Below are positions 3 to 43,529 of a stretch of DNA of 43,529 nucleotides, piece by piece. The notes beneath the pieces are model-generated. The model saw only the letters and a list, made by a program, of their open reading frames with translations, had not been told where the DNA came from and searched no databases. This DNA is from Crossiella sp. SN42. GTDB lineage: Bacteria; Actinomycetota; Actinomycetes; Mycobacteriales; Pseudonocardiaceae. Position 1 is the stretch's first letter. Every line of letters starts with the position of its first letter. Position numbers and translations under genes: made by a program. The stretch spans positions 1 through 43,529 of the forward strand of contig NZ_JAMHIV010000058.1 of the NCBI RefSeq assembly GCF_023897065.1, given 5' to 3'.

Positions 3-1418
3 GAGGCAGCTGATCCTTTTCCCGACTTACAGGCCCTCGATGCTGAGATGACCGGTCACTTTGGGGACGAGCAGGCCGCCAGGCTTGAGATGACCGGTCA
101 TCTTGCGGGTCAGCAGGCCGTCGAGCATGAGATGACCGGTCGCTTTGCGGGCGAGCAGCTGACCGAACTCGAGAAGGCCGGTCACTTTGGGGATGGTCAG
201 GCCACCGAGCTTGAGGCGACCGGTTGCTTTCCCAGTGAGCAGACGGCCGAGCTCAAGATGACCGGTCGGTTTGAGGACGAGCGGGCCGCTGGACTTGAGG
301 CGACTGGTCACTTTGTGGGTGAGAAGGCACGCCCGTCTGAGATGACTGGTCACCTTCAGGCGGGTCAGACACGAGCGTCTGAGACGACCGGTCATATTCG
401 CGACACGCAAATGCGCGCTTCCAAGACGGCTGGTCACGCTCGCGCTGAGCAGGTACGCGAACTTGAGACGACCGGTCACATTGGCGAGGAACAGGTCAGC
501 GAGTCTGAGACGACCGGTCACATTCGCGATGGTCAGCTTCGCCGCCACCAGCAAGCCGGCCCACCCACCCAGCCGGACCTCACTGCCCTCGGCGCCCTGC
601 TCGACCTCTCCCTAGCCGGCGACCCGGCCCGCAAGGTCGGTGGTGTCCGGCTCCGCCGAGTCCCCTCCGCGGGCGGCCGCTACCCGGTCAACGCCCACCT
701 CGGCTCCGCCTACTACGACCCCATCGCCCACGAGCTCCACGGCCCCCCAGCCGCCACGATCACCCTTGCCCTGCAACCACAACGCACCACCTGGCGCTAC
801 GGCCCCCGCTCCCTCCCGGTCCTCCTGCTCGACCTCGGTCACGCCCTGGCCGCGATCCTCACCGCCGCGCGCACCCTCGCCATCCCCGCCACCGCCGCCT
901 TCACCCCGCAACCCCCGCGGCACGGCGAGTACCCCCTCGCCACCGTCCACCTAGGACTGTCCACAAAGGAACCAGCTGGCAAATCCCCAGATCCGCTCCC
1001 GGATCCACCGGGCCTACCGCTGATCGAAGCCGCCCTGACCGAGCTGAGCACCCGCCCGCCGGCCCCGCTGCCCTGGGACCCACCGCGGGTCACCCCGGAA
1101 ACCCTGCTCGCCCGGCACACCGCCGCCTGGCCTTCTCGCGGCCCGATCTCCTTGCCGGATCACGGTCTTACCGAAGTCCGCCCGACCCCGGACCTGGCCG
1201 CCAGCTCCTGTGGGCAACCCGAGCTCGCCCAGGCCGAGCGGCTGCTCCTGGCCACCGGTGAGCCCGAGCCGCTGAACTTCGTCCGGGCCGGCATGGCCGT
1301 GCACCGGGCCTGGTTGCTGGCCACCGCCGCTGGGTTGTCCGTGCGGCCGGTCGGCTGCTGGATCCGTGCGCGCTACAACGGCCAGCGCGTGTTGCACGCG
1401 CTGGCCGTCGGTCCTTAG
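3..1418 (+). CDS. Nitroreductase-family (SagB-like) protein with 14-residue N-terminal repeats, 5' partial
   Basis: The frame is open through the left window edge, so the true start lies upstream; the Met at 48 has no ribosome site and is internal to the repeat frame. Residues up to about 167 (from Met48) are twelve 14-residue units of pattern E-x-T-G-H-x4-Q-x4. The rest resembles the flavin-dependent nitroreductase/SagB-type dehydrogenase family: SAGGRYPV, a YG-RSLPVLLLDLGHALAAI segment, and near the C-terminus AGMAVHRAWLLATAAGLSVRPVG. Such enzymes bind FMN and often oxidise azoline heterocycles in peptide natural products, but no cyclodehydratase or precursor gene is visible here, so the substrate is unknown. 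The stop overlaps the convergent aztD-like stop by 4 bp. Family assignment is fairly secure; the role is not. Confidence 0.7.
   Translation, partial: EAADPFPDLQALDAEMTGHFGDEQAARLEMTGHLAGQQAVEHEMTGRFAGEQLTELEKAGHFGDGQATELEATGCFPSEQTAELKMTGRFEDERAAGLEATGHFVGEKARPSEMTGHLQAGQTRASETTGHIRDTQMRASKTAGHARAEQVRELETTGHIGEEQVSESETTGHIRDGQLRRHQQAGPPTQPDLTALGALLDLSLAGDPARKVGGVRLRRVPSAGGRYPVNAHLGSAYYDPIAHELHGPPAATITLALQPQRTTWRYGPRSLPVLLLDLGHALAAILTAARTLAIPATAAFTPQPPRHGEYPLATVHLGLSTKEPAGKSPDPLPDPPGLPLIEAALTELSTRPPAPLPWDPPRVTPETLLARHTAAWPSRGPISLPDHGLTEVRPTPDLAASSCGQPELAQAERLLLATGEPEPLNFVRAGMAVHRAWLLATAAGLSVRPVGCWIRARYNGQRVLHALAVGP
45..548 (+). repeat. Twelve-unit 42-bp tandem repeat with GACCGGTC core
   Basis: Twelve diverged 42-bp units run without a break. 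Each has an 8-bp core related to the palindrome GACCGGTC at the same offset; seven of the twelve are perfect. The Gly codon of the TGH motif is GGT in all twelve, although GGC dominates elsewhere in this genome. A further upstream stretch of 14 codons (3-44) keeps the Glu1 and Gln10 positions and may be a decayed unit. The array is in frame with the nitroreductase-like domain. Confidence 0.95.
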
Positions 1419-2704
1419 CGCCCCACCAGGTCCGCGTGCCGGACCCCGGGCTCCCACACCGCGATCGAGCCGCCGCCGCTGAGCGCGGTCGGCAGCTTCA
1501 GCGCGCCGCACAGCCGCTTGGTCGCGGTGTCCACCACGTCCACCCGGCCCTGGCCGCCCGCGGTCACGAACGCGGTGCCGCCGTTGTCGGTCAGCGCGAC
1601 CCGCCGGCCCTGCGCGGCGAACGGGTCCGTTCCGCCCTGCGGGCCGCCGGGCAGCGTGCCCAGGTCAAGACGACCAGTCACCTTCGCGGTGCGCACGTCC
1701 ACCAGCACCAGCTCGTCGGTGCGCCCGCCCTGCACCAGGTAACCGGCCAGGGTGTCCGACAGGCCGAAGCGGTACAGGTAGCCCGTGCCCAGCGGCACCC
1801 GGTGGGCGGCGCCGGTGGCCGCGTTCACCAGGTAGGCGTCCTCGGTCCACTGGGTCCAGTCGGTGGCCCGGTCGTCGCGGACGTAGCTGGCCACGGTGCC
1901 GCCGTCATCACCGAGTCGCACGTAGAACGCGCGGCCGCCGGTGCGCCCGGAGATGTCCCAGGGGACCGTGCGGGCGGTGCCGAAGGATCCGTCGGCGCGC
2001 ACCGGCAGCAGGTCGAAACCGCGTTCGGTGGCGACGGCGACCACCCGGTGCCGGGCGGAGAACGCCTCGCCGTGGCCGTGCTCGCCGATCGCCGCCGTCC
2101 TGGCCGGCGCCAGCGGCTCGGTGCCGGTGTGCGCCAGCAGGTCCCGGCGCGGGAACGCCTGCACCGCCGCGGGCTCGTCGTTGCGCAGCAGCACCGAGTC
2201 GGTCGCGGCGTCGATGAGCACCCCCGGCTCACCGGCGGCCACCGGCACCTCCTTGGTCTGCCAGGTCTTGAGGTCCACCACGATGAGGTGCGCGCCCTCC
2301 TCGTGCGGCGCGGCCGGCTCCTCGTGCTCGTGGTGCTCGGCGGTGGTGATCACCGCGTAGCTGCCGGTCGGGTCCACGGTCAGGTGCGCGACCTCGCCGT
2401 CCACCGGCGCGCTGCCGATCACCTTGGGCGTCCCGGAGAGCTGCAGTGCGACCAGCGAGTGGCTGCGGTCGTCGACGAAGATCGCCCGGCCGTCCGGCAG
2501 CGTCACCACACCCGCGTGGTCGTTGAGCACCCGGTCGGCGACCGATCCGGTCACCCGCCCGGTGACCGGATCAAGCACGTGCACGGTGGCCGCGTGCTGG
2601 TCGGCCACCAGCACGCGGGTTCCTGATGTGGTCGCATTCGCCGCCGGGGCCAACGCGAACAGGGATAACACCGTGGTCGCGACCGCGGTGAGGGATCGAA
2701 GCAT
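1415..2704 (-). CDS. aztD: Secreted zinc metallochaperone, AztD-like beta-propeller
   Basis: The 429-residue protein begins with a signal peptide (residues 1-24, cleavage after ANA) followed by repeated beta-propeller blades (VLVADQHAATVHVLDPVTG and similar). A His-rich loop at about residues 124-139 (HHEHEEP, PHEEGAH) and a later GEHGHGE stretch match the zinc-binding loops of AztD, the extracytoplasmic chaperone that hands zinc to the AztC solute-binding protein. AGGAGGT lies eight bases upstream of the ATG. The promoter carries a Zur-like box, supporting a zinc role. No aztABC transporter genes flank it, so it would have to work with a transporter encoded elsewhere. A generic YncE-type propeller is the alternative. 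Confidence 0.75.
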   Translation of the reverse strand: MLRSLTAVATTVLSLFALAPAANATTSGTRVLVADQHAATVHVLDPVTGRVTGSVADRVLNDHAGVVTLPDGRAIFVDDRSHSLVALQLSGTPKVIGSAPVDGEVAHLTVDPTGSYAVITTAEHHEHEEPAAPHEEGAHLIVVDLKTWQTKEVPVAAGEPGVLIDAATDSVLLRNDEPAAVQAFPRRDLLAHTGTEPLAPARTAAIGEHGHGEAFSARHRVVAVATERGFDLLPVRADGSFGTARTVPWDISGRTGGRAFYVRLGDDGGTVASYVRDDRATDWTQWTEDAYLVNAATGAAHRVPLGTGYLYRFGLSDTLAGYLVQGGRTDELVLVDVRTAKVTGRLDLGTLPGGPQGGTDPFAAQGRRVALTDNGGTAFVTAGGQGRVDVVDTATKRLCGALKLPTALSGGGSIAVWEPGVRHADLVGR

Positions 2705-3458: not shown

Positions 3459-4658
3459 ATGGCGTACGACGTCGCTCGGGTACGGGGCTTGTTCCCCGCG
3501 CTGGGCGACGGGTGGGTCCACCTCGATTCACCAGCGGGTATGCAGGTACCCGAACAGGTGGCGACCGCGGTCTCGACCGCGTTGCGCGCTCCGGTGTCCG
3601 GGCCGGGCGGAATATTTCCGGCCTCACAGCGGGCAGAGGCGATCGTGGACGCGGCCCGTCGCTCCGTAGCCGACCTGGTCGGCTGTGACCCGGCCGGCGT
3701 GGTCCTCGGACCCAGTTCCGCCGCCCTGCTGCAACGCCTCGCCGACGCCCTCGGCGAGGCCTGGATGCTGGGTGACGAAGTGGTCGTCTCCCGGCTCGAC
3801 CACCCCGGCAACGTCTCACCCTGGGTACGCGCCGCGCAGCGCGCCGGGGGCAGCGTGCGCTGGGGCGAGATCGACATCGAGACCTGCGAGCTGCCCGCCT
3901 GGCAGTACGACGGGCTGATCACCGGCAGCACCAAGGCGGTGGCCATCACCGCGGCCTCCGGCGCGGTCGGCACCCGACCGGACGTCCGGCACGTCTCCGA
4001 CGTCGCCCGCAAGCACGGCGCCCTGGTCGTGGTGGACGCCTCCTCGGCCGCCCCGTTCGTGCCGCTGGACGTGCTGTCCATGGGCGCGGACGTGGTCGCG
4101 GTCTCCGCCTCGGCCTGGGGCGGCCCGCCGGTCGGCGCGCTCGCCTTCCGGGACGCCAGCCTGCTCGACCGGCTGCCCTCGGCCGCACTCGAACACGGCG
4201 CCCGCGGCCCGGAGCGGCTGGAGCTCGGCCCGCACGCCTACCCGCTGCTGGCCGGACTGGTCGCCTCGGTGGACTACCTGGCCGGACTGGACGACGCGGC
4301 CATCGGCCCGCGCCGGGAGCGGCTGCTCACCTCGCTCGGCTCGGTCAAGGCCTACCAGGCCGGCCTGCTGGCCAACCTGATCAACGAGCTGCGCGCGATG
4401 CGGCACGTGATGGTCATCGGCGACGCCATGCGCAGGGTCCCCTCGCTGGCCTTCACCATCACCGGCGCGAAGGCCTGGGAAGCGGTGGAACATCTGGCCG
4501 AACGCGGGGTGTGCGCCTTCCACGACTCCGGGCACAATGGCGTCTTCGCCGCACTCGGGGTCGGCGAGGTCGGTGGCGCGATCCGGGTCGGTCTGGCCCA
4601 CTACACCAACGCGGCCGAGGTCGACCAGCTCGTGCGCGCGGTGGCCGAACTGCGCTGA
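3459..4658 (+). CDS. Class V aminotransferase / cysteine desulfurase-like protein
   Basis: The 399-residue protein has the fold-type I layout of SufS/CsdA-like PLP enzymes: HLDSPAGMQVP at the N-terminus, a helix-rich PLP-phosphate region (GPSSAALLQRLADAL), SRLDHPGNVSPW, TAASGAVGT and VVVDASSAAPF, where Asp193 would face the pyridine nitrogen. At the expected Schiff-base lysine (normally S-x-H-K-x-x-G-P) it reads SASAWGGPP, so no lysine is present around residues 215-222. This suggests a non-catalytic or altered homologue. The start at 3459 gives a normal N-terminus; upstream in-frame sequence overlaps bpa and is not family-like. Confidence 0.8.
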   Translation: MAYDVARVRGLFPALGDGWVHLDSPAGMQVPEQVATAVSTALRAPVSGPGGIFPASQRAEAIVDAARRSVADLVGCDPAGVVLGPSSAALLQRLADALGEAWMLGDEVVVSRLDHPGNVSPWVRAAQRAGGSVRWGEIDIETCELPAWQYDGLITGSTKAVAITAASGAVGTRPDVRHVSDVARKHGALVVVDASSAAPFVPLDVLSMGADVVAVSASAWGGPPVGALAFRDASLLDRLPSAALEHGARGPERLELGPHAYPLLAGLVASVDYLAGLDDAAIGPRRERLLTSLGSVKAYQAGLLANLINELRAMRHVMVIGDAMRRVPSLAFTITGAKAWEAVEHLAERGVCAFHDSGHNGVFAALGVGEVGGAIRVGLAHYTNAAEVDQLVRAVAELR

Positions 4659-4679
4659 GTCAGCAGCAGTGGAGGGTGG

Positions 4680-5342
4680 TTGAACGACTCGCTCGCCAGG
4701 GCGATGGCCGATCTGGCCGCCTGGCACAAGCTCGCGCCGCTGCTCACCGAGTACCTGCCCTTCGGCGATGCCTCCCTGCGCCCGTCCGGGCTGACCACCG
4801 TGCTGGACGAGGCCATGGTCGGCAACCGCACCGTGCTGCTGGAATGCGGCAGCGGCTCCTCCTCGGTGGTGGTGGCCAGGATGCTGGCCCGCCGCGGCTT
4901 CGGCCACCTGCTCTCCCTTGAGCACGACGAGCGCTGGGCCGCCTTCGTCAACACCCAGCTGCGCCGCGAGGGCCTGCACCAGATCGCCAGGGCGGTGCAC
5001 TGCCCGCTCAGCGGCCACCCGGCCGCGGTCGGCACGCTGGACTGGTACTCCCCGCAGCTGGTGCACGACGAGGTGATGGCCTACGTGGACCGCTTCGGCC
5101 TGGTCGACCTGCTGCTGGTGGACGGCCCGCCCGCGTTCGAGCCGGGCAAGGACCTGGCCCGCTACCCGGCGCTGCCGGTGCTGCGCTGGGCGCTCGCGCC
5201 GGGCGCGACCATCCTGCTCGACGACGTGGACCGGCCGGGCGAGCTGACCGTGCTCACCCGCTGGCAGGAGCAGTTCGGCCTGCGCTTCCGGGCCGACCCG
5301 ACCGGCACCCGGCTGGCCGTCGGCATGCTCGACCCCGGCTAG
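4680..5342 (+). CDS. Class I SAM-dependent methyltransferase-like protein
   Basis: A 220-residue protein starting at TTG 4680, four bases after a GGAGG. The segment VLLECGSGSSSVVVARML (about residues 52-69) is a SAM-binding glycine-rich loop, LLSLEHDERWAAF supplies the acidic residue after strand 2, and VDLLLVDGPPAFEPGKD is the strand-4 region. This pattern resembles O-methyltransferases of the TylF/class I group. It lies 21 bp after the aminotransferase-like gene on the same strand and is probably cotranscribed. The substrate is not predictable. Confidence 0.65.
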   Translation: MNDSLARAMADLAAWHKLAPLLTEYLPFGDASLRPSGLTTVLDEAMVGNRTVLLECGSGSSSVVVARMLARRGFGHLLSLEHDERWAAFVNTQLRREGLHQIARAVHCPLSGHPAAVGTLDWYSPQLVHDEVMAYVDRFGLVDLLLVDGPPAFEPGKDLARYPALPVLRWALAPGATILLDDVDRPGELTVLTRWQEQFGLRFRADPTGTRLAVGMLDPG

Positions 5343-6489: not shown

Positions 6490-6550
6490 GCCCTGAAGCT
6501 AGACCCAATTCGGTGGCGTGGCAGCCCGCCATCCCGGACGATCGGCTGGC

Positions 6551-7183
6551 ATGGACCCCTGGCCATTGCGCCACCTGGTGTTGCGCACCCCGCGCCTGGA
6601 GCTGCGCCCGGATGACGACGCGGGCCTGCTGGAGATGGCCGAGGTGGCGCTGTCCGGGGTGCACTCGCCGGAGCAGATGCCCTTCTCCATGCCGTGGACC
6701 GAGATGTCGCCTGCCGAGCTCGGCCGGGGGTCGGTGCAGAGCCGGTGGCGCAAGCGGGCCGAGCACAGCCCGGAGAGCTGGGACGTCGGCTTCCTGGTCC
6801 GGCATCAGGGCCGGGTGATCGGCACCCAGGGGCTGATGGCGGAGAACTTCGGGGTGCTGCGCGAGGTGAGCTGCGGTTCCTGGTTCGGCATGGCCCACCA
6901 GGGGCAGGGCTTCGGCACCGAGGCGTGGGCCGCGGTGCTGCTGCTGGCCTTCGACCACCTCGGCGCGGAGCTGGGGCACGCGCTGGCCTTCGCGGACAAC
7001 ACCGCCTCCCGCGCGGTCAGCCGCAAGCTGGGCTACCAGGACACCGGGACCAGGCGCGTCGTCCGCCGTGGCGAGCCTGCCGTCCAGGTGGAGCAGCGGG
7101 TGACCCCGGGCGGCTTCAAACGCCCGGACTGGACCCTCGAAGTCGACGGCCTGGACGCCTGCCGAGAGATGTTGGGAGCCTGA
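6551..7183 (+). CDS. GNAT-family N-acetyltransferase (copy 1)
   Basis: A 210-residue GNAT protein: LVLRTPRLELRPDDDAGLLEMA is the N-terminal strand typical of RimJ/RimL-like enzymes, GFLVRHQGRVIGTQGL is the central hairpin, and GMAHQGQGFGTEAWAAVL carries the Q/R-x-x-G-x-G/A acetyl-CoA loop. ADNTASRAVSRKLGY is the usual C-terminal helix. The start at 6551 is chosen because the downstream paralogue begins with the same MDPWPLRHL. The acceptor is unknown. One base separates its stop from the second copy, indicating coupled translation. Confidence 0.85.
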   Translation: MDPWPLRHLVLRTPRLELRPDDDAGLLEMAEVALSGVHSPEQMPFSMPWTEMSPAELGRGSVQSRWRKRAEHSPESWDVGFLVRHQGRVIGTQGLMAENFGVLREVSCGSWFGMAHQGQGFGTEAWAAVLLLAFDHLGAELGHALAFADNTASRAVSRKLGYQDTGTRRVVRRGEPAVQVEQRVTPGGFKRPDWTLEVDGLDACREMLGA

Positions 7184-7184
7184 C

Positions 7185-7817
7185 ATGGACCCCTGGCCAC
7201 TGCGCCACCTGGTGTTGCGCACCCCGCGCCTGGAGCTGCGCCCCGACGACGACGCCGGCCTGCTGGAGCTGGCCGGACTTGCCGGGCAGGGCATCCACCC
7301 ACCAGCGGAGATGCCGTTCATCGTGCCGTTCACCGACCGGGCTCCCGGCGAGCTGGAACGCGGTGTGGCCCAGTACAACTGGCGGCAGCGCGCCGAGCTC
7401 AGCCCGGCGAAGTGGACCATCGGCTTCCTGGTCCGGCACCAGGGCCGGGTGATCGGCAACCAGTCCCTCTCCGCCGAAGAGTTCGCGATCACCCGCGAGG
7501 TGCGCACCGGCTCCTGGCTCGGCATGGCGCACCAGGGCAAGGGCTTCGGCACTGAGATGCGCGCGGCGGTGCTGGCCTTCGCCTTCGACCACCTGGGCGC
7601 GGTGCAGGCCCGCTCGGAGGCCTTCGCGGACAACCACGCCTCGCTCGGGGTCAGCCGCAGGCTCGGCTACCGGGACAACGGCAGCAAGCTGGTGGCCCGG
7701 CGCGGCCAGGTGGCCACCGAGATGGGGCTGCGGCTGCCCGCCGCCGAGTTCGTCCGGCCGGACTGGACCCTGGACGTCGAGGGCCTGGACGCCTGCCGGG
7801 AGCTGCTCGGCGTCTAA
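7185..7817 (+). CDS. GNAT-family N-acetyltransferase (copy 2, tandem paralogue)
   Basis: A 210-residue paralogue of the preceding gene with the same motif order (LRTPRLELRPDDDAGLLEL; GMAHQGKGFGTEMRAAVL; ADNHASLGVSRRLGY). The first 80 or so bases are nearly identical to copy 1 while the middle and 3' parts have diverged, which points to duplication followed by gene conversion or strong constraint at the 5' end. It ends in a 4-bp overlap with the convergent peptidase gene. Confidence 0.85.
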   Translation: MDPWPLRHLVLRTPRLELRPDDDAGLLELAGLAGQGIHPPAEMPFIVPFTDRAPGELERGVAQYNWRQRAELSPAKWTIGFLVRHQGRVIGNQSLSAEEFAITREVRTGSWLGMAHQGKGFGTEMRAAVLAFAFDHLGAVQARSEAFADNHASLGVSRRLGYRDNGSKLVARRGQVATEMGLRLPAAEFVRPDWTLDVEGLDACRELLGV

Positions 7818-43420: not shown

Positions 43421-43470
43421 ACGGTGCGTACTTGTTGCGGGACCAGCGTGGTGCGGGTTCCGCTTTCTCC

Positions 43471-43529
43471 CGGCCTCCCGGCCTCCCGGCCTCCCGGCCT
43501 CCCGGCCTCCCGGCCTCCCGGCCTCCCGG
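43471..43529. repeat. 8-bp tandem repeat CGGCCTCC, truncated by the window end
   Basis: Seven perfect copies of CGGCCTCC plus three bases reach the last base of the window. The total length is unknown. It is non-coding as far as seen. Confidence 0.95.

Follow-up and report, generated by a model that had tools for sequence, protein, structure and literature searches.

In Rhodobacter sphaeroides, the operator of the repressor AcuR is an inverted repeat, TAATAGAC-n6-GTCTATTA, that lies over the promoter of a leaderless operon, as described in the cited portion of that work (PMC3017554). The Crossiella box reported here shares three features with this system. The repressor that accompanies it is a TetR-type protein of a similar kind, for which AcuR is the best NCBIfam model at a score below the cut-off; the predicted operator is an inverted repeat overlapping a leaderless promoter, with the ATG 6 bp after the box; and the repressor gene adjoins a reductase or dehydrogenase gene. 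The two differ in that the cited portion describes one operator before the operon (PMC3017554), whereas about 60 copies lie in arrays and within genes in this Crossiella species, and in that the half-sites are unlike, the Crossiella core being GACC/GGTC.

Chromosomal titration by binding boxes is described for DnaA in E. coli in the excerpt on which we draw (PMC12371093). There, as would hold for Crossiella if its sites act as a sink, many chromosomal boxes for one protein are unevenly clustered and lower the amount of free protein; DnaA, however, is a replication initiator, and a species-specific burst of its boxes is not part of that excerpt. DnaA boxes are not known to form tandem operator arrays. 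Synthetic DNA sponges are engineered decoy arrays that shift a response by titrating a DNA-binding protein, according to the cited part of the account (PMC7686491). The Crossiella sites may have the same effect, and differ in being natural, chromosomal, dispersed and partly coding rather than engineered. In the literature found, as far as the excerpts go, work on decoy sites of bacterial transcription factors concerned synthetic arrays or regulators of the DnaA type, and no report of a natural tandem expansion of a TetR operator was found among the titles and abstracts listed from the open-licence literature.

REP sequences and Rickettsia palindromic elements offer a comparison of another kind. 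The cited part of one study describes them as stem-loops with GTAG or CGTC tags, with loops of 4 to 5 bases in most CGTC types, the GTAG type being tied to RAYT transposases and the CGTC type seeming to have no dedicated one (PMC3733652). Like these elements, the Crossiella box is a short, dispersed palindromic repeat with some copies within genes; unlike them, it has a loop-free 8-bp core and an apparent origin at a TetR gene. By sequence, no REP-type stem-loop with an unpaired GTAG or CGTC tag was seen at the box, as GACCGGTC is a perfect palindrome without a loop and the flanks are near-random; a CGTC string does lie beside the box on one strand in units with CGAC, without the published stem-loop. 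A search for the RAYT domain (Y1_Tnp) found it in neither of the two genomes of this species, in the genus-mates G001 and G002, and not in the genus-mate G003, and we rejected identity with REP/RAYT elements because the domain is missing from the species itself.

Here we describe an array of this box inside a coding gene. Going by the sequence comparisons below, we favour, with moderate confidence, the reading that it consists of operators for an AcuR/NemR-like TetR repressor that were amplified in this species and probably serve as a repressor sink.

The box and its copies in the genome

The window is a whole contig of 43,529 bases (C54) from a 9.72-Mb draft genome of Crossiella sp. SN42 in 82 contigs (G000). 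The contig begins within the array, so that the array gene runs off its edge. At its other end, at 43467-43529, lies a simple repeat, (CTCCCGGC) x 8, and both ends of the contig thus fall in repeats. The array (Table 1) has twelve units of exactly 42 bp, each opening with the form GAGAYGACCGGTCRYxTT or a variant, and the core GACCGGTC is perfect in 7 of them, as the preliminary description of this DNA had stated. Shuffles predict 0.05 matches to the 18-mer at three or fewer mismatches in the window, which has ten, nine of these being in the array; chance is excluded for the matches in the array. An antisense frame of 175 amino acids with x-V-T-G-R-L-type repeats crosses the array on the minus strand (27-554) because the unit is near-palindromic. 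Elsewhere in the window, two adjacent and clearly paralogous open reading frames (ORFs; 6518-7183 and 7185-7817), which we take to be acetyltransferase-like, both contain LVLRTPRLELRPDDDAGLLE.

Table 1. Features of the window that bear on the array (positions in the window)
Feature	Position	Strand	Remarks
Reading frame holding the array	3..1418	+	5' end lies off the contig; the frame continues from the array into the domain
Degenerate 13th unit (GAGGCAGCTGATCCTTTT...), at the contig edge	3..44	+	Matches unit 2 of the 17 units in G221 best
Array (12 units of 42 bp) in which every unit starts with the 18-bp operator-like site RAGAYGACCGGTCRYATT or a variant	45..548	+	Mostly read in frame as x-x-T-G-H/R-x
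Nitroreductase/SagB-like part	549..1415	+	Conserved in three genus-mates without the array
Beta-propeller (YVTN-like) ORF carrying the site at 1667-1684	1415..2704	-	Neighbours the array gene
Box-like site AAGACGACCAGTCACCTT inside the next gene	1667..1684	+	Against two genus-mates: clustered substitution, no insertion

With at most one mismatch, RAGAYGACCGGTCRYATT is found 55 times in this genome and 58 times in G221, a genome of the same species in one contig of 9.17 Mb, and the reversed control pattern is found in neither; a looser pattern gave 71 matches against 5 for its control. As contigs break beside arrays, the count for the draft genome is a minimum. Each strain has 12 loci of the box, namely the array gene and 11 loci outside predicted genes, some of them with a single site, a count that leaves out isolated in-gene matches and the original operator pair of G221. 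Ten of the 11 intergenic loci are common to both strains; C20 in G000 and 7015591-7015985 in G221 had no partner among the loci retrieved from the other strain. Regular intergenic arrays in the draft genome, named here by contig, have a spacing of 30 bp (C3), 33-39 bp (C60) or 18 bp (C12 and C63), and there are smaller or irregular clusters as well. The earlier suggestion that a spacing of 42 bp, as four helical turns, sets every palindrome on one face of the DNA therefore does not extend to the other arrays. At C60, the first array box overlaps the TAA stop of the upstream gene (L002, 1404-1422). Beside the clusters of C63 (L076, 1-470), C52 (L073, about 1200-1300) and C6 (L068, about 4330-4790) lie GC-rich, degenerate low-complexity stretches that are poorly alignable to, or absent from, G221.

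The intergenic sites of the two strains (n = 98; 51 in G000 and 47 in G221) form a sharp 18-bp box, with the core GACCGGTC exact in 96 and flanks that are near-random past the adjoining base; since the sites were chosen at three or fewer mismatches, conservation inside the box is partly built in, and the randomness outside it is not. The sites are asymmetric, with G at position 3 and A at position 16. A symmetric dimer need not require this asymmetry, and its retention suggests that, besides selection, copying by descent has been at work. An array of constant repeats with variable spacers also calls CRISPR to mind, a possibility made unlikely by the spacing, which varies, by the length of the repeat (18 bp) and by its apparent origin as an operator.

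A TetR-family gene beside the box

G001, G002, G003 and G024 each have two boxes in inverted orientation that are separated by 1.62-1.64 kb, and in every pair one box has 1 mismatch. One box lies before a zinc alcohol dehydrogenase gene and the other before the start of a TetR-family gene. The inverted pair at first resembled the ends of an insertion element, a candidate rejected because the pair encloses the dehydrogenase and TetR genes. In G221, there are 6 bp between the end of one box and the TetR ATG, and a second box stands before the dehydrogenase gene; as read from the sequence, CATATT lies inside the first of these boxes and TTGACA 17 bases before CATATT. The TetR gene (C1:738535-739116 in G221) is kept in both strains of the species (97% identity), and in the draft genome contig C48 starts just before its start codon.

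Outside the species, we inspected the 1.5-kb neighbourhood of 31 loci, from 29 of the 35 other genomes with an exact copy of the box. A TetR homologue was found at 24 of these loci, with 26-76% identity (one at only 26%); 2 had a dehydrogenase only and 5 had neither, so that 7 of the 31 are without a TetR homologue. In G221 and the four genomes with the inverted pair, the site lies directly upstream of both the repressor gene and its putative target, and site and regulator co-occur across genomes. Given the position of the box 6 bp before the TetR start and this neighbourhood link, the 18-bp box is very probably the operator of the AcuR/NemR-like TetR repressor. The protein has TetR_N and TetR_C_13 domains. 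Its best NCBIfam model, the AcuR equivalog, gives 120.3 bits, under the cut-off of 247, and we therefore call the protein AcuR-like only. The nearest solved chains are 3bru and 3knw, with NemR (4yze) fourth and CifR (6nsn) seventh.

We propose that the ancestor had one operator before the repressor gene and one before the zinc alcohol dehydrogenase gene, and that in this species the 18-bp operator was multiplied to about 60 copies, which are spread over 12 loci in addition to the original pair. In the nitroreductase/SagB-like gene behind the YcaO gene, an exact spacing of 42 bp in a stop-free frame would keep the gene open. By binding to the arrays, the repressor dimer would turn the chromosome into a sink, leaving less free repressor, and this sink would set the threshold of the repressor/dehydrogenase switch. 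In addition, an array in or before a gene, as for the array gene, the aldehyde dehydrogenase gene and cutA, may repress that gene or act as a roadblock to it as long as no electrophile has set the repressor free. The location of some arrays between convergent genes and the similar site totals of the two strains would fit a sink.

Species restriction and turnover of the sites

The preliminary description had proposed a search of related genomes for the unit, and this search set the species apart. An exact copy of the box is present in 37 of 390 family genomes, and more than three copies are present only in G000 (41) and G221 (45); among the genomes searched, the amplification is restricted to these two of one species, with 55 and 58 sites at one or no mismatch against at most 3 exact copies in the other family genomes. 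Across named genomes, there were at least 80 matches, a listing that may not include the species itself; about 49 of the 80 listed were Streptomyces with one pair at a spacing of 27 bp, and none of the matches listed was an array of the Crossiella kind. The Streptomyces box pairs of GACCGGTC type (e.g., L137, L142 and L144) may represent a double operator that serves a different regulator.

Comparison with the genus-mates covered six loci. At C3 and C60, the alignable flanks of the genus-mates meet within 8-19 bp, where G000 has about 400-540 bp, and the 457 and 472 bp of G000 at C57 and C5 correspond to about 97 and 171 bp in G002. Only one flank of C12 could be aligned, and lengths were similar at C20, which has one site. 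Arrays that stand where relatives have next to nothing between the flanks, a burst in two of 390 genomes and the kept asymmetry of the intergenic sites are what would be expected of a self-spreading short repeat, in which the operator was copied by short ectopic conversion or by an unknown transposase, in the manner of REP sequences and Rickettsia palindromic elements, the cell gaining little if anything from it. Speaking against such spread, Y1_Tnp was found in neither genome of the species and is present in G001 and G002, which have no expansion; the box has no loop for a REP-type hairpin, and its flanks share no sequence; and the ancestral site is operator-like and stands beside a TetR gene.

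Sites within other genes bear on the same question in two ways. The site in the beta-propeller gene next to the array gene (Table 1) and one in an asparaginase-like gene (C5:161440), which has a matching site in G221, were aligned with G001 and G002, and G003 yielded no alignment. For both genes, these two genus-mates have partial sites and the alignment is free of gaps, while the species itself has 3-5 changes per 18 bp, mostly towards the box, with a divergence of 7-13% outside the sites. Mismatches to the box drop from 3-4 to 1 in the asparaginase-like gene; for the beta-propeller gene, the 4 mismatches of the genus-mates are reduced to 1 in G221 and only to 2 in the window, where one change leads away from the box. 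The effect on the proteins is small (Val or Ile to Leu), and, as roughly estimated by hand from how densely 4-mismatch sites occur in relatives, the chance of such in-gene sites is a few per cent per genome. These two cases, which were noticed post hoc, suggest selection for the box or short conversion patches. Their resemblance to short patches of clustered changes agrees with self-spreading, and their origin without insertion speaks against it; taking all this into account, we regard spread for its own sake as rather unlikely. More box-like sites apparently lie within ORFs of G000 at C1:227001, C82:48491 and C82:95686.

NemR has a role with electrophiles, and the arrays could also be read as an expanded regulon, in which each would be a working operator of its neighbour (aldehyde dehydrogenase, cutA, pfkB-like kinase, YCII protein or nitroreductase) in an electrophile response. 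Sites do lie upstream of genes that we read from the sequence as aldehyde dehydrogenase, cutA, pfkB-like kinase, YCII and Gfo/Idh-type oxidoreductase genes, and AcuR controls acrylate-handling genes according to the cited portion of that study (PMC3017554). This reading has to contend with C60, C20 and C6, which lie between the 3' ends of convergent genes and hence would fit a sink and not a regulon, and with the main array, which is inside a gene and, with up to 17 units, exceeds the need of simple repression. We give a regulon of this extent a low probability.

Between the two strains, the flanks of the loci are about 89-99% alike, and the spacers differ and often fail to align, while the boxes persist. 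The number of sites is unequal at 6 of 10 shared loci (e.g., 7 versus 1, 4 versus 9 and 10 versus 6) and equal at 4, and the intergenic totals given above are similar despite these differences. Low-complexity stretches adjoin several of the clusters (e.g., those of C63, C52 and C6), as they should if intergenic repeats were expanding in this species by neutral, microsatellite-like turnover with the operator as a hitch-hiker. Neutral slippage does not predict a box that stays sharp while its surroundings change between strains, which makes this explanation improbable.

Constraint on the coding array

The start of the array gene, which the preliminary description had proposed to seek upstream, was traced in both strains. 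In G000, the missing start was found at the edge of contig C37, which implies a break in the assembly at the array or immediately before it. In G221, the gene is complete (580 amino acids), and its GTG start, at L124:8864, overlaps the stop codon of a YcaO gene; after a short N-terminal part come 17 in-frame units of exactly 42 bp and then the domain. The in-frame fusion to a nitroreductase/SagB-like domain was borne out by the open frame, with a domain match that is weak (Pfam Nitroreductase, 26.1 bits against a cut-off of 23.5). The full-length G221 orthologue had no Pfam family at an E value of 0.001, and against the SagB-type dehydrogenase model TIGR03605 (NCBIfam) the array gene scores 22.1 bits, far under the cut-off of 78.4. 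The YcaO neighbour lies below the SagD cut-off as well (206 against 219 bits). In G221, this SagD-like YcaO gene is directly upstream of the array gene and is itself preceded by more ORFs (L124, 5252-8867), and it is possible that the gene set is a thiazole/oxazole-type peptide-modification operon whose dehydrogenase bears the array. Orthologues in G001, G002 and G003 carry the domain, and their translations are without the repeat.

Codon use was examined in 29 units from both strains (12 from G000 and 17 from G221), with expectations taken from codon use in 37 further ORFs in the window. All 29 units have T at the end of codon 4 (27 GGT, one AGT and one GAT; 2.2 expected), and 28 of 29 have it at the end of codon 6, across Phe, Leu, Ile, Ala, Ser and Val (0.45 expected); because tandem units share descent and are not independent, these statistics are overstated and the expectations only indicative. 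In the window, the core Gly codon is GGT in all 12 units, as first described, although GGT makes up just 7.6% of Gly codons in the 37 other ORFs. The accompanying statement that Thr is encoded only by ACC or ACT needs correction, as these codons are found in 10 of the 12 units and Ala (GCC and GCT) in the other 2. Of the 29 units, 18 close with T, which is likewise the most frequent base before the intergenic boxes; codon 8, in the spacer, is T-rich as well (16 of 29). Columns of the box have a mean entropy of 0.55 bits, those of the spacer one of 1.22 bits. The claim that the core is kept at the nucleotide level is therefore upheld for the T-ending codons and has to be relaxed elsewhere, since the exact core is present in only 18 of 29 units (7 of 12 in G000 and 11 of 17 in G221) and position 16 of the box is no less variable than a base of the spacer (entropy, 1.82). 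The intergenic arrays show less degeneracy than the coding one.

At the protein level, constraint on the array is weak. Between strains, dN/dS over 11 matched unit pairs is 0.73 in the array (0.78 in the box and 0.72 in the spacer) against 0.30 in the domain, which does not indicate purifying selection on the repeat residues. No stop codon is present in 30 units, whereas only 13 of 2,000 spacer shuffles were free of stops, and the spacer retains a G-x-Q pattern. Together with the T-ending codons and the looser core, these results indicate that the gene must stay open, that its residues are little constrained and that much, though not all, of the box is kept. A protein-level tandem repeat (the metal- or peptide-binding function first suggested by the His residues, or a flexible linker), with the DNA likeness as a by-product of duplication, would explain the frame kept in both strains, the G-x-Q pattern and the greater tolerance of core changes, and is nevertheless very improbable, as the motif is also present at 11 non-coding loci, the T-ending codons persist while residues change at a dN/dS of 0.73, and the orthologues of three genus-mates do without the repeat. 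The other possibility raised at the outset, a DNA array hidden in a gene, is well supported as regards the motif, which recurs at 11 further loci outside predicted genes, retains some of its letters while residues change and adjoins a TetR gene in relatives; that the repressor binds it is predicted from these patterns.

More tentatively, the arrays might represent a natural, chromosome-wide repressor sponge that arose from the self-propagating operator of a single-target TetR switch, by tandem growth and by short patches that complete half-sites, also in ORFs, with coding sequence held to a DNA-binding motif and the total number of sites kept. The array gene is also an instance of a coding sequence that appears to be constrained more by a predicted DNA-binding motif than by its protein. 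Taken together, a simple autoregulated TetR switch seems to have gained about 60 consensus-like sites in one species, and since its near relatives serve as few-site controls, both the fitness effect and the evolutionary route of operator amplification are directly testable.
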